64,000 bases of DNA from Cribrihabitans marinus (GTDB taxonomy: Bacteria; Pseudomonadota; Alphaproteobacteria; Rhodobacterales; Rhodobacteraceae): positions 62,001-126,000 of the forward strand of contig NZ_FNYD01000003.1 in NCBI RefSeq assembly GCF_900109035.1. Direction: 5' to 3'. Both the position numbers and the translations under genes were made by a program. Each line of letters starts with the position of its first letter. Position 1 is the first letter of the stretch. The notes beneath the pieces were generated by a model. That model had not been told where the DNA came from. It saw only the letters and a list, made by a program, of their open reading frames with translations, and searched no databases. Below are positions 55,833-63,475 of this stretch, piece after piece.

Positions 55833-57098
55833 ATGCGCAGAGTCGTTGTTACCGGTCTGGGGCTCATCACCCCATTGGCCAGCGGGGTCGAGGAATCCTG
55901 GACGCGGCTTTTGGCCGGCCAGTCGGGGGCGGGCCCGATCACCCGTTTCGACGCGGTGGCGTCGGGCGTGACCACAACCTATGCCTGCGAGGTTCCGCGT
56001 GGGGACGGCAGCAACGGGACGTTCAATCCCGATGACTGGATGCCGCCCAAGGAACAGCGCAAGATCGAGGACTTCATCCTCTATTCCATCGCCGCGGCCG
56101 AAATGGCCTGCCGCGATGCCGATTGGACGCCCGAGGACGAGGCCGACCGGCTGCGGACCGGCGTTCTGATCGGGTCGGGCATCGGCGGGCTGGGCTCGAT
56201 CGCCGACACCGCAGTGATGATCAAGGAGAAGGGTCCACGCCGGGTGTCGCCCTTCTTCATTCCCGGTGCGCTGATCAACCTGGCCTCGGGGCAGGTGTCG
56301 ATCCGGTTCGGGTTCAAGGGGCCGAACCATTCGGTGGTGACGGCCTGTTCGACAGGCGCCCATGCCATCGGAGACGCCAGCCGGATCATCCGTGCCGGCG
56401 ACGCCGACGTAATGATCGCCGGTGGCGGCGAGGGCTGCATCTGCGAGATCGGCATCGCCGGCTTCAATGCCTGCAAGGCGCTGAGCACAAAGTACGCCGA
56501 CGACCCCAAGGCCGCGAGCCGCCCCTATGACCAGGACCGCGACGGGTTCGTGATGGGTGAGGGCGCCGGTGTCGTGGTGTTGGAGGATTACGAGCACGCC
56601 AAGGCGCGCGGTGCGAAGATCTATGCCGAGGTCAAGGGCTATGGCATGTCGGGCGACGCCTATCACATCACCGCACCCAGCGAGGATGGCGATGGCGCCG
56701 AGCGGTCGATGCGCGCGGCCCTGGCCAGTGCCGGGCTGGAACCCACGGATATCGACTATATCAATGCGCATGGCACCTCGACCATGGCCGACACGATCGA
56801 GCTGGGCGCTGTGGAGCGCATGCTGGGCGACCATGCCGGAAACGTGACCATGTCCTCGTCCAAATCCATGACCGGGCACCTTCTGGGTGCAGCCGGCGCG
56901 ATCGAGGCGATCTTTTCGATCCTGGCGATCCGCGACCAGGTCGCCCCGCCGACGATCAACCTGGACAATCCGGCAGTCGAGACGCCGGTGGATCTGGCGC
57001 CCAACGCCAAGCGGGAGCGCAAGATCGACTTTGCGCTGTCGAACTCGTTTGGGTTCGGCGGCACCAATGCAAGCGTGATTTTCGGGAAGGTCAGCTGA
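55833..57098 (+). CDS. fabF: beta-ketoacyl-ACP synthase II
   Basis: A 421-residue condensing enzyme. The catalytic triad is Cys172 (VVTACSTGAHAIG), His of NAHGTSTM and His of MTGHLLGAAGA. It elongates fatty acids in type II synthesis. Its stop overlaps the mltG start by one base. Confidence 0.97.
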   Translation: MRRVVVTGLGLITPLASGVEESWTRLLAGQSGAGPITRFDAVASGVTTTYACEVPRGDGSNGTFNPDDWMPPKEQRKIEDFILYSIAAAEMACRDADWTPEDEADRLRTGVLIGSGIGGLGSIADTAVMIKEKGPRRVSPFFIPGALINLASGQVSIRFGFKGPNHSVVTACSTGAHAIGDASRIIRAGDADVMIAGGGEGCICEIGIAGFNACKALSTKYADDPKAASRPYDQDRDGFVMGEGAGVVVLEDYEHAKARGAKIYAEVKGYGMSGDAYHITAPSEDGDGAERSMRAALASAGLEPTDIDYINAHGTSTMADTIELGAVERMLGDHAGNVTMSSSKSMTGHLLGAAGAIEAIFSILAIRDQVAPPTINLDNPAVETPVDLAPNAKRERKIDFALSNSFGFGGTNASVIFGKVS

Positions 57099-58258
57099 TG
57101 TGGCGGGCGCTGGCCTCGAACATGCTGACCGTCCTGGCGGTCGGCCTCTTTCTGCTGGCGGGGCTGCTGGTGTGGGGGCAGAATCAGTTCACCGCCAGCG
57201 GGCCGCTTGACGAGCCGATCTGCCTGCGGGTCGAGCGTGGCTCGACCATGACGCGGGTGAGCCGTGAATTGCAGGAGGATGGGGCGGTCAGCAGCGCCAC
57301 GATCTTTCGACTGGGTGCGCAGTATTCGGACAAGACCGGGCAGTTGAAGGCGGGCAGTTTCCTGATCCGCGAAGGCTCGTCCATGGACGAGATCATCGAA
57401 CAGATCACCCGCGCCGGTGCCAGCACATGCGGCACCGAGATCGTCTATCGCATCGGCGTCACCCGTCAGACCGCCGAGGTGCGCGAGCTGGACCCCGCCA
57501 CGCAGGCCTATGTCGAGCTGGTCGAGTTCGATCCCAACGCCGAGGACATCCCGCCGGTCTATGCAGAAAAGCGCGAGAAGTCCGACACGCGGTATCGCAT
57601 TTCCCTGGCCGAGGGGGTCACCAGCTGGCAGGTGGTCGAGGCGCTGAAGGCGTGGGACGCCCTGTCGGGAGAAGTGGCGGAGGTGCCCGCCGAGGGCATG
57701 CTGGCGCCCGACAGCTACGAGGTCGTGGATGGGGCCGAACGCGCCGCGCTTCTGGACCAGATGCAGAGCCGCCAGCGGGCGCGGATCGACGCGGCGTGGG
57801 AAACCCGGCAGTCTGATCTGCCGATCTCGACTCCCGAGGAGATGCTGATCCTGGCGTCGATCATCGAGAAGGAAACCGGCGTGCCGGAAGAGCGTGGCCA
57901 GGTGGCCAGCGTCTTTGTGAACCGCCTGCGCCAGGGCATGCGCCTGCAGACCGACCCGACGGTGATCTATGGGGTCACCAAGGGCCAGGGCGTGTTGGGG
58001 CGCGGGTTGAGGCAAAGTGAGCTGCGCCGTGCAACGCCCTGGAATACATATGTGATCGAAGGGTTGCCGCCAACGCCGATCGCCAATCCGGGGGTTGCGA
58101 GCCTGGAGGCTGCGGTGAACCCGGACGAGACGGAATACGTGTTCTTCGTGGCCGATGGCAGTGGCGGGCACGCCTTTGCCGAAACCCTGGAGGAACACAA
58201 TCGCAACGTCGCCAAGTGGCGCCAGATCGAGGCCGAGCAGCAGAGTTCGGGCAACTGA
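57098..58258 (+). CDS. mltG: endolytic transglycosylase MltG
   Basis: A 386-residue inner-membrane protein with one N-terminal helix (MLTVLAVGLFLLAGLLVWG) and the YceG domain; the catalytic Glu is in LILASIIEKETGVPEERG, followed by VFVNRLRQGMRLQTDPTVIY and TYVIEGLPPTPIANPG. It cleaves nascent peptidoglycan glycan strands and may mark their ends. It is coupled to fabF and is the last cellular gene before the GTA cluster. Confidence 0.96.
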   Translation: MWRALASNMLTVLAVGLFLLAGLLVWGQNQFTASGPLDEPICLRVERGSTMTRVSRELQEDGAVSSATIFRLGAQYSDKTGQLKAGSFLIREGSSMDEIIEQITRAGASTCGTEIVYRIGVTRQTAEVRELDPATQAYVELVEFDPNAEDIPPVYAEKREKSDTRYRISLAEGVTSWQVVEALKAWDALSGEVAEVPAEGMLAPDSYEVVDGAERAALLDQMQSRQRARIDAAWETRQSDLPISTPEEMLILASIIEKETGVPEERGQVASVFVNRLRQGMRLQTDPTVIYGVTKGQGVLGRGLRQSELRRATPWNTYVIEGLPPTPIANPGVASLEAAVNPDETEYVFFVADGSGGHAFAETLEEHNRNVAKWRQIEAEQQSSGN

Positions 58259-58347: not shown

Positions 58348-58376
58348 TTGACTCTGCGCGCCTTGTCGCGTATAGG
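58348..58376 (+). promoter_or_regulatory. strong sigma70-like promoter upstream of GTA genes
   Basis: TTGACT (58348-58353) and TATAGG (58371-58376) with an optimal 17-base spacer. Transcription would begin near 58383, about 100 bases before gp1. Confidence 0.75.
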
Positions 58377-58402
58377 TTGTGTCATGCTAGAGGACGTGGG
58401 CA

Positions 58403-58437
58403 AACGGCCCCGGGGGTGACCCCGGTGGCCGTTTTTT
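58403..58437 (+). terminator. intrinsic terminator between the GTA promoter and gp1
   Basis: AACGGCC (58403-58409) pairs with GGCCGTT (58427-58433) and the inner CCGGGG/CCCCGG extends the stem, followed by six T residues (58432-58437). It lies only about 20 bases past the predicted start site of the promoter at 58348-58376 and 48 bases before gp1. Confidence 0.9.
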
Positions 58438-58484
58438 CATGTCTCTCGTGCGGAGATCACTCTCGCATGAGGTCACGAGCACAC

Positions 58485-58829
58485 ATGACTTTGATTACCC
58501 CGGAGGAGCGAATCCTCGAGACGGCCGAGTTGCTGCGGTCGATTCACGAGTCCATTCGAGGTCTGAGGCAAGCGGCAGAAGACCTGCGCCGTCAGATTGT
58601 GGCCGGGGAGGATGCTGAACTTGCTGGCGCAACAAAGCAGTTCGGACAGGTGCAGAGCCTGATCCGCAACTGCCAGACCGTGGAGGCGCAACTTGCCGAA
58701 CAATACAACCGACAGGCCGGAATCGCACAGGGAGGATACGCGCTCGACCTTGACGCCGCCCGGGTTGAGGTCGGGTGCCGGCTGGCTCGCCTGCGCGCCT
58801 GCTGCGGTGCGCGACCGGTTTCTGAGTGA
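58485..58829 (+). CDS. gene transfer agent gp1, probable small terminase
   Basis: A 114-residue mostly helical protein (ERILETAELLRSIHESIRG; LRQAAEDLRRQIVAGEDAEL; QVQSLIRNCQTVEAQLAEQY). It sits at the position of RcGTA gene 1, whose product is the small terminase. An ATG six codons upstream (58467) has GGAGA before it and is an alternative start. The gene overlaps the terL frame by up to about 137 bases. Confidence 0.85.
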   Translation: MTLITPEERILETAELLRSIHESIRGLRQAAEDLRRQIVAGEDAELAGATKQFGQVQSLIRNCQTVEAQLAEQYNRQAGIAQGGYALDLDAARVEVGCRLARLRACCGARPVSE

Positions 58830-60108
58830 CATCGGGGAGGGAGGGCTGTGTGCCCTCCCTTTCCTGTTCGAGTTTTGGGCGCTGCCGCATCAGCTGCCGC
58901 CCGAGGGGAATTGGCGGAGCTGGGTGATCCTGGGCGGCCGTGGCGCGGGCAAGACGCGCGCCGGGGCGGAATGGGTGCGCGATCAGGTCGAAGGCGCGCG
59001 CCCGCTGGACCGCGGCCGGTCGCGGCGCGTGGCGCTTGTGGGCGAGACCCATGACCAGGTGCGCGACGTGATGGTGTTCGGGGACAGCGGAATCCTGCAG
59101 TGCTCGCCCCCCGACCGCCGCCCGCGCTGGAAGGCCACCGAGCGCAAGCTGATCTGGCCCAATGGCGCCGAGGCGCAGGCCTTTTCGGCACAGGACCCGG
59201 AAGGGTTGCGCGGGCCGCAATTCGACGCGGCCTGGGTGGACGAGCTGGCCAAGTGGAAGAAGGGCGGTGAGACCTGGGACATGCTGCAATTTGCGTTGCG
59301 GCTGGGCGAGGATCCGCGGGTCTGCGTAACGACGACACCGCGCAACGTGAAAGTGTTGAAGGATCTGTTGGCCGTGCCTTCGACGGTGCAGACCCATGCG
59401 CCGACCGAGGCGAACCGGGCCAACCTGGCGGCGTCGTTCCTGGAGGAGGTGCGGGCGCGCTATGCCGGGACTCGGCTGGGGCGGCAGGAACTGGACGGCG
59501 TGCTGCTGGCTGATGCCGAGGGGGCGCTGTGGACCACGGCGATGCTGGAGGGCGCGCGGGTGGCGCGGGCGCCGGCGTTGGACCGGGTGGTGGTGGCGCT
59601 GGATCCGTCGGTAAGCGGTGATGCCCGGGCCGATGCCTGCGGGATCGTGGTCGTGGGGGCGCAGCTTCAGGGGCCGCCGCAGGACTGGCGGGCCTATGTG
59701 CTGGCCGATTGCACGGTGCAGGGCGTGGGGCCTGCGGGCTGGGCGCGCGCGGCCGTTGCGGCACGTGATCGGTTCGGGGCGGAACGGCTGGTGGCCGAGG
59801 TCAACCAGGGCGGCAAGCTGGTGGAAGAGGTGCTGCGGCAGGTCGATCCGCTGGTGCCTTACAAGGCGGTGCACGCGGCGCGGGGCAAGGTGGCGCGGGC
59901 CGAGCCGGTGGCGGCGCTCTATGAGCAGGGGCGGGTGCGGCACCTGGGCGGTCTGGCCGAGCTGGAAGAGCAGATGTGCCTGATGACCGCGCGCGGATAC
60001 GAGGGGCCCGGCTCGCCCGACCGGGTCGATGCGCTGGTCTGGGCCCTGCACGAGCTGATGATCGCGCCGGCGGCGCGGATCCGGCAGCCGCGGGTGCGCG
60101 TGCTCTAA
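58750..60108 (+). CDS. terL: gene transfer agent terminase large subunit
   Basis: The packaging ATPase-nuclease of the GTA (RcGTA gp2). Walker A is GGRGAGKTRAGAEW, Walker B QFDAAWVDELAKW, and the nuclease part has VVVALDPSVSG, LVAEVNQGGKLVEEV and SPDRVDALVWAL. The frame is open to 58693. Family alignment needs the segment SGAGWLACAPAAVRDRF, so translation must begin upstream of it; I mark TTG 58750 but 58693, 58765 and GTG 58807 are open. It overlaps gp1. A terminator follows its stop. Confidence 0.95.
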   Translation: MTPPGLRSGAGWLACAPAAVRDRFLSDIGEGGLCALPFLFEFWALPHQLPPEGNWRSWVILGGRGAGKTRAGAEWVRDQVEGARPLDRGRSRRVALVGETHDQVRDVMVFGDSGILQCSPPDRRPRWKATERKLIWPNGAEAQAFSAQDPEGLRGPQFDAAWVDELAKWKKGGETWDMLQFALRLGEDPRVCVTTTPRNVKVLKDLLAVPSTVQTHAPTEANRANLAASFLEEVRARYAGTRLGRQELDGVLLADAEGALWTTAMLEGARVARAPALDRVVVALDPSVSGDARADACGIVVVGAQLQGPPQDWRAYVLADCTVQGVGPAGWARAAVAARDRFGAERLVAEVNQGGKLVEEVLRQVDPLVPYKAVHAARGKVARAEPVAALYEQGRVRHLGGLAELEEQMCLMTARGYEGPGSPDRVDALVWALHELMIAPAARIRQPRVRVL

Positions 60109-62260: not shown

Positions 62261-62296
62261 CCCGCCGGAACACCGTCCAGGGAAAGGGATGTGCAG

Positions 62297-63475
62297 ATGA
62301 GCAAGACCGAGCAGGCGGCCTTGGCCGGCGAGGATATGTCCCCGGTTCAGGAGGCGAAGCAGGCGATCAGCCGGTTCGTCAATGAATTCAAGGGGTTTCA
62401 AGGTGAAATCCAAAGCAGACTTCAACAAACGGAAGAGCGAGTGACCATGCTGGATCGAAAAACTCAAACCGCGGCGCGGCCGCACCTGGCCGCCGCGACC
62501 GATACCGGCGCGCCGCATCAGAAGGCGTTCAACGCCTATCTGCGCTCGGGCGACGATGACGGTCTGCGCGGCCTGGAACTGGAGGGCAAGTCGCTGTCCT
62601 CGGCGGTGAACAGCGATGGCGGCTATCTGGTCGATCCGCAGACCGCCGACACGGTCAAGTCGGTGCTGAAATCCACCGCGTCGATCCGGTCGATTGCCAG
62701 CGTCGCCAATGTCGAGGCCAACTCCTTCGACGTTCTGATCGACCATACGGATGTGGGCGCCGGCTGGGCCGATGAAACCAGCCCCGCCGCCGAGACCGGG
62801 ACGCCGTCGATCGACCGCATCTCGATCCCGCTGCACGAGTTGAGCGCGCTGCCCAAGGCGAGCCAGCGCCTGCTGGATGACAGCGCCTTCGATATCGAGG
62901 GCTGGCTGGCCGGGCGCATCGCGGACAAGTTCGCGCGGGCTGAGGCCGACGCCTTCATCAATGGCGATGGCGTCAACAAGCCGCGCGGGTTCCTGACCCA
63001 TGCCACGGTGGACAACGATGTCTGGAACTGGGGCAATCTGGGCTATGTCCCGACCGGAATCTCCGGCGGTGTCGATGCCGATGCCATCGTCGACATGGTT
63101 TATGCGCTGGGCGCGCAGTACCGCGCCAACGGCACATTCGTGATGAACTCGAAGACCGCGGGACACGTGCGCAAGCTGAAGGATGCCGATGGCCGCTTCC
63201 TGTGGTCCGATGGTCTGGCCGCCGGCGAGCCGGCGCGGCTGATGGGCTATCCGGTGGTGATCGCCGAGGACATGCCGGATGCCAGCGACGGCAGTTTCTC
63301 GATCGCGTTCGGGGATTTCCGCGCGGGATACACCATTGCGGAGCGGCCCGACCTGCGCGTTCTGCGCGACCCGTTCAGCGCCAAGCCGCATGTCCTGTTC
63401 TATGCCACCAAGCGCGTCGGCGGCGACGTGAGCGACTTCGCCGCGATCAAGCTGTTGAAATTCGGCACCGCCTAG
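62297..63475 (+). CDS. gene transfer agent major capsid protein (HK97 family)
   Basis: A 392-residue HK97-type coat protein, RcGTA gp5. The first 70 residues are a helical scaffold part removed by the protease (AKQAISRFVNEFKGFQGEIQ). The coat domain follows: SSAVNSDGGYLVDPQTADTV, GWADETSPAAETGTPSIDRI, FINGDGVNKPRGFLTHA, GTFVMNSKTAGHVRKLKD, RLMGYPVVIAEDMPDASDGS. Start ATG 62297 follows AAGGGATGTGCAG. Confidence 0.97.
   Translation: MSKTEQAALAGEDMSPVQEAKQAISRFVNEFKGFQGEIQSRLQQTEERVTMLDRKTQTAARPHLAAATDTGAPHQKAFNAYLRSGDDDGLRGLELEGKSLSSAVNSDGGYLVDPQTADTVKSVLKSTASIRSIASVANVEANSFDVLIDHTDVGAGWADETSPAAETGTPSIDRISIPLHELSALPKASQRLLDDSAFDIEGWLAGRIADKFARAEADAFINGDGVNKPRGFLTHATVDNDVWNWGNLGYVPTGISGGVDADAIVDMVYALGAQYRANGTFVMNSKTAGHVRKLKDADGRFLWSDGLAAGEPARLMGYPVVIAEDMPDASDGSFSIAFGDFRAGYTIAERPDLRVLRDPFSAKPHVLFYATKRVGGDVSDFAAIKLLKFGTA

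Follow-up and report, generated by a model that had tools for sequence, protein, structure and literature searches.

A conserved promoter-terminator leader before the GTA operon of Rhodobacteraceae suggests antitermination control by GafA

GTAs are virus-like particles that move random host DNA. In the GTA system of Caulobacter crescentus, which comprises GafY, GafZ, IHF and terGTA (PMC11150451, 2024), GafZ loads at an element between the -35 and -10 boxes that is needed for GTA synthesis, lets RNA polymerase past terGTA and also past E. coli rrnB T1, and travels with the elongating polymerase and NusA/E/G, the latter being shown in Caulobacter only. GafZ is homologous to the C-terminal part of Rhodobacter capsulatus GafA, and the authors of that study proposed that GafA might likewise antiterminate (PMC11150451). 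A similar arrangement is known from lambda Q at pR'-tR' and from AlpA, both discussed in the same work, where a promoter is followed by a terminator and a factor loaded at a site in the promoter allows the polymerase to pass; GafZ was, however, not reported to be related to Q in sequence or fold (PMC11150451). Going by the title of a further paper (Korotaev et al. 2025, cited in PMC13236601), a Bartonella GTA is likewise expressed by antitermination and involves a chimeric element whose parts derive from diverse phages. The preliminary description of the locus studied here, which knew of no antitermination control of GTAs, is corrected by these two reports.

In R. capsulatus, GafA control has been published as activation of initiation: GafA acts through the omega subunit of RNA polymerase and its C-terminal part binds the promoter fragment, according to the available text of PMC9638019, and no mention of a terminator or of antitermination was found in the accessible parts of PMC6363796 and PMC9638019. 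GTA antitermination as such is therefore already published, and the new part is the leader terminator of Rhodobacteraceae, of which no description was found in a search of the text of mostly open-access papers.

The window analysed, a stretch of 64,000 nucleotides from Cribrihabitans marinus, contains the start of a GTA operon together with its leader (Table 1). There, a GC-rich hairpin is followed directly by a U-tract: a stem of 13 bp with one bulge runs into six T residues and ends 47 nt before g1. The segment 58380-58437 folds at -31 kcal/mol (z -3.5), a value reached by none of 200 shuffles, and the pattern of promoter plus GCTRGA occurs once in the window against 0.02 expected. The preliminary description had placed TTGACT-17-TATAGG, then a stem with six T, ahead of g1, and window sequence and fold agree with its coordinates. 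Its wording of a near-consensus promoter was right for the -35, which is excellent, but overstated for the -10, which lacks the usual T at the sixth position. A strict scan requiring that T omitted the promoter; it also omitted the terminator, probably because of the bulge in the stem. The imperfect -10 probably implies that an activator is needed.

Table 1. Features of the GTA leader and neighbouring genes in the C. marinus window.
Feature	Position	Strand	Remarks
GTA promoter	58348..58376	+	-35 TTGACT 58348-58353, 17-nt spacer, -10 TATAGG 58371-58376
Candidate loading site of the GafA C-terminal (GafZ-like) domain, spacer motif GCGnnC	58356..58364	+	proposed from conservation
Predicted transcription start and conserved early-transcribed element CATGCTAGAGGACGTGGGCAA	58383..58403	+	start expected near 58383 (position predicted in C. 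marinus)
Intrinsic terminator AAACGGCCCCGGGGGTGACCCCGGTGGCCGTTTTTT	58403..58437	+	stem 58403-58433, six T 58432-58437
Lower helix around terminator	58393..58443	+	GACGTG 58393-58398 pairs with CATGTC 58438-58443
Second hairpin CTCGTGCG/CGCATGAG	58445..58472	+	3' arm overlaps likely g1 ribosome-binding site GAGG 58469-58472
g1, small terminase, first gene of the GTA operon	58485..58829	+	directly before g2, as in R. capsulatus; no Pfam match
g2, large terminase (longest open frame)	58693..60108	+	Terminase_6N, Terminase_6C (Pfam)
g5, major capsid protein	62291..63475	+	Phage_capsid; homologue of the solved R. capsulatus GTA capsid
mltG (YceG-like), upstream neighbour outside the system	57098..58258	+	

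A set of 80 named Rhodobacteraceae loci was collected around the large terminase, and nearly all of those that extend far enough upstream show the layout of the window. A covariance model of promoter and hairpin, built from 55 leaders, gave 92 matches among 95 sources searched, and in these 92 leaders TTGAC is nearly invariant, the T and A of the -10 are conserved at 96-98%, and GCT with the following G and A bases of the early-transcribed element reach 93-100%, above the -10. Within the terminator stem 97.8% of the cells are paired and all nine modelled pairs show two-sided changes, affecting 92 cells compared with 13.5 in shuffles, and with a drop to about half when the stem is slid; this alignment was fitted to the structure, so that the counts lean towards it, and an unfitted alignment retains two-sided changes in seven of the nine pairs. 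The distance from the -35 to the stem is 57-58 nt in 83 leaders, the median stem energy is -21 kcal/mol, and at least four T lie within the eight bases after the stem in 89. By sequence, fold and covariation, a terminator thus separates the promoter from the bulk of the operon.

In a family survey of 297 Rhodobacteraceae genomes, one per genus, the leader element was found in 216, usually once per genome. The preliminary description had named conservation of promoter plus terminator before g1 as a check of its proposal, and this is borne out by a covariance-model match in 188 of the 241 genera that carry a GTA capsid. Among the 106 genomes with both positions listed, 99 have the leader on the same strand as the capsid gene and 3.6-4.5 kb upstream of it.

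That the hairpin simply ends mltG transcripts, unrelated to the GTA or by chance, was one of the two readings first put forward, and its distance of about 145-180 bases from the mltG stop codon in the window would agree with it. Covariation and near-fixed spacing to the promoter in 92 related leaders, however, exclude a chance hairpin. No mltG was detected within 1.5 kb in 33 of the 92 leaders, many of them from Ruegeria (an approximate count, since a few loci are short or divergent), and these keep promoter and hairpin; moreover, 17 of the 59 mltG-adjacent leaders, R. capsulatus included, have a separate terminator between mltG and the promoter. Judging from these comparisons, the leader hairpin is not simply the mltG terminator, and we regard such an origin as extremely improbable.

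A related proposal is that the hairpin serves only to block readthrough from upstream, while a constant share of the polymerases started at the GTA promoter gets past it with no antiterminator involved. It draws on the fact that nothing else terminator-like lies between mltG and the GTA promoter in the window, and on the general rule that terminators are never fully efficient. Insulation, however, would be expected upstream of the promoter, whereas the hairpin sits downstream of it at near-fixed spacing, and the 17 leaders with a terminator in the insulating place still keep the hairpin. An insulating role alone seems unlikely to us.

The corresponding leader of R. capsulatus can be compared with published promoter data. 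We took one genome of our collection (G328) as R. capsulatus because its capsid matches the solved GTA capsid of R. capsulatus exactly. The leader of this genome has the sequence TTGACT-17-TAGAGA, GCATGCTAGGAGAGGTGGGCAA, then AGCGCCGCGGGTGACCGTGTGCGCTTTTTT, and its T-run begins 51 nt before the g1 ATG. The C. marinus promoter lies where promoter and start site are located in R. capsulatus. According to the accessible text of PMC6363796, the GafA-binding probe, 76-125 bp upstream of g1, spans the -10 and the start site supported by RNA-seq. When placed on the leader sequence, this probe stops where the terminator begins. The promoter and activator of the published GafA/omega control in R. capsulatus (PMC6363796, PMC9638019) are the same as in C. 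marinus, and the R. capsulatus leader carries the same terminator. In addition, part of the R. capsulatus cells express a reporter that reaches to the g1 start codon and therefore includes the leader (PMC3423380), from which it follows that polymerase passes the hairpin in producers.

These data also bear on the idea that the unit is a small RNA gene whose 53-55 nt product acts elsewhere, the GTA being expressed by leaky readthrough or from another promoter. The compactness of the unit from promoter to terminator and the strong conservation of its 5' end would suit such a gene, but the unit is found almost only directly before GTA g1, and the start site of the R. capsulatus operon was mapped to the GTA promoter itself (PMC6363796, available text). 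We consider this idea highly improbable.

With regard to the factor, the C. marinus genome has a gene for a DUF6456 protein (211.7 bits, cut-off 26.3) that carries a helix-turn-helix at its N terminus and is 52% identical to its R. capsulatus homologue, GafA. DUF6456 is present in 276 of the 297 genomes of the family survey, and among 14 controls Caulobacter alone has it; family genomes without it mostly also lack a GTA. Between the -35 and -10, the spacer carries a conserved GCGnnC motif (C 95%, G 98%, C 95% in 57 non-redundant leaders), although such a spacer is not read base by base by sigma. Its consensus, GCGCACG, is similar to GCGCCCG, the left half of the element in Caulobacter, and this similarity makes the motif a candidate loading site for the C-terminal part of GafA. 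The two systems would share the DUF6456 activator family, a loading element between -35 and -10 (a candidate in Rhodobacteraceae) and a downstream terminator that blocks the operon. They differ in that terGTA consists of three 150-bp GC-rich repeats after the first gene, whereas in Rhodobacteraceae one short intrinsic terminator lies before g1, about 20 nt downstream of the start; antitermination is, in turn, experimentally supported in Caulobacter and inferred in Rhodobacteraceae. A difference from lambda Q is that the early transcribed region lends no support to a sigma-dependent pause element: the -10-like candidate TGCTAGAAG varies at its second base.

Upstream of the promoter, a CGGTTA motif lies 31-33 bases before the -35 in 13 of the 92 leaders, at near-constant distance, and is possibly a second GafA site.

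Taken together, these observations lead us to propose, with a probability of roughly 0.6, a two-step gate resembling that of lambda Q, in which GafA both fires the promoter and lets the polymerase pass the leader terminator. GafA would first activate the promoter, whose -35 is good and whose -10 is imperfect. After about 20 nt of transcript, the polymerase would meet the intrinsic terminator and, unless modified at the promoter, would stop there and release an RNA of 53-55 nt. The conserved spacer motif is probably where the C-terminal DUF6456 domain of GafA, the counterpart of GafZ, loads, and the polymerase so modified would continue beyond the hairpin into g1 and the genes that follow, much as with Q at pR'-tR'. 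The hairpin would also halt stray polymerases that lack GafA, whether they come from mltG or from elsewhere. Termination at the hairpin in vivo and its relief by GafA are what we infer from this arrangement; non-producing cells, in which the preliminary description expected an RNA of about 55 bases, may contain little of it, because the promoter itself looks GafA-dependent.

The gate is supported by the joint conservation of promoter and terminator, the covarying stem, the near-fixed spacing and the constant place before the capsid gene, as well as by the GafA probe that ends at the terminator, the loading of GafZ between -35 and -10 and the family-wide presence of DUF6456. Against it count the known action of GafA, which is at initiation through omega (PMC9638019, available text), the position of the terminator mapped in Caulobacter, after the first gene and not in the leader, and the 53 capsid-bearing genera without a model match, several of whose leaders have neither part. 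Antitermination control, the second of the readings first put forward, is thus the best supported, promoter and terminator being conserved together, even if its claim to novelty fell. In this regard, the leader terminator offers a concrete and conserved target for the question of whether R. capsulatus GafA antiterminates, and the gate could be part of the reason why most cells of a population keep a lethal operon silent. If the proposal is true, terminator gating would be a shared, phage-like principle of alphaproteobacterial GTAs.

The leader holds further structure beyond the terminator; as a whole it folds with z -6.0. In the lower helix, 98.2% of the cells are paired (37 leaders), and a perfect 6-bp match is present in 70 of the 92 leaders, against a shuffled mean of 49.5 and with 70 never reached in 2000 shuffles. 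One pair covaries, being A-U in most leaders and C-G in Rhodovulum, Sulfitobacter relatives, the C. marinus window and others; conservation of this helix, as read from the alignment, has moderate support, since that single pair is the only one to vary on both sides. The second hairpin keeps at least six uninterrupted pairs in 82 of the 92 leaders, and in Sulfitobacter the stem is kept with different bases.

Such features could suggest attenuation based on RNA, in which the choice between stop and passage is made by a conserved alternative fold of the leader, by a ligand or by a translation signal, and not by a protein on the polymerase. The conserved 5' element, the helix across the U-tract and the second hairpin over the ribosome site speak for it. 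The lower helix, however, requires RNA transcribed beyond the stop point, no helix was seen that would compete with the terminator stem, and no conserved leader peptide exists, the ATG of the candidate in CATGCTAG being AAG or ACG in many genera. Nor did Rfam 15 give anything above the gathering score at the leader, where the best weak match is ctRNA_pGA1 (22.5 bits, 45 required) and only a tRNA elsewhere in the window reaches its threshold. We judge attenuation of this kind to be improbable. Compatible with the GafA gate, though doubtful, is the notion of a dedicated RNA element, in which the 5' element pairs across the U-tract and the g1 ribosome site lies under the second hairpin. Passage of GafA-modified polymerase, the fate of the readthrough RNA and translation of g1 would thereby be coupled; the released 53-55 nt RNA may then act itself.

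The layout of promoter and terminator is not universal in Rhodobacteraceae GTAs. Fourteen of the leaders from the 53 unmatched capsid-bearing genera were inspected: in at least two, a good terminator follows an altered promoter, and several lack both parts. In L198, L200, L205, L208 and others, capsid and DUF6456 are present and both promoter and terminator are missing before g1. The GTAs of such genera may be decayed or otherwise controlled.

Outside the family, a survey of 289 genomes of the class gave strong matches only in the C. marinus genome and in one other member of the Rhodobacteraceae, and the leader was otherwise represented by four weak matches (27-33 bits); the three of these that could be inspected have neither mltG nor a GTA terminase nearby. 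In IMG/VR, 53 of the 80 loci examined (L213-L292) contain a full-length leader match, and the number encoding a GTA large terminase is equal, also 53 of 80. These 53 contigs are GTA clusters filed as viruses, so the covariance model also serves to locate GTA clusters by their leader. Pattern matches without the GTA large terminase look like chance, and no true phage with the leader was seen among the 80 loci.

In four genera (L158; L162; L163 and L212; L167), the GTA leader and g1 are retained and the large terminase is altered: after about residue 186 it switches in frame to an unrelated sequence, GCAAVDKGTNQPN..., which is probably part of a GTA tail protein. No capsid gene was found in the genomes of these loci, and the pattern looks like the same internal deletion of the cluster, four times.
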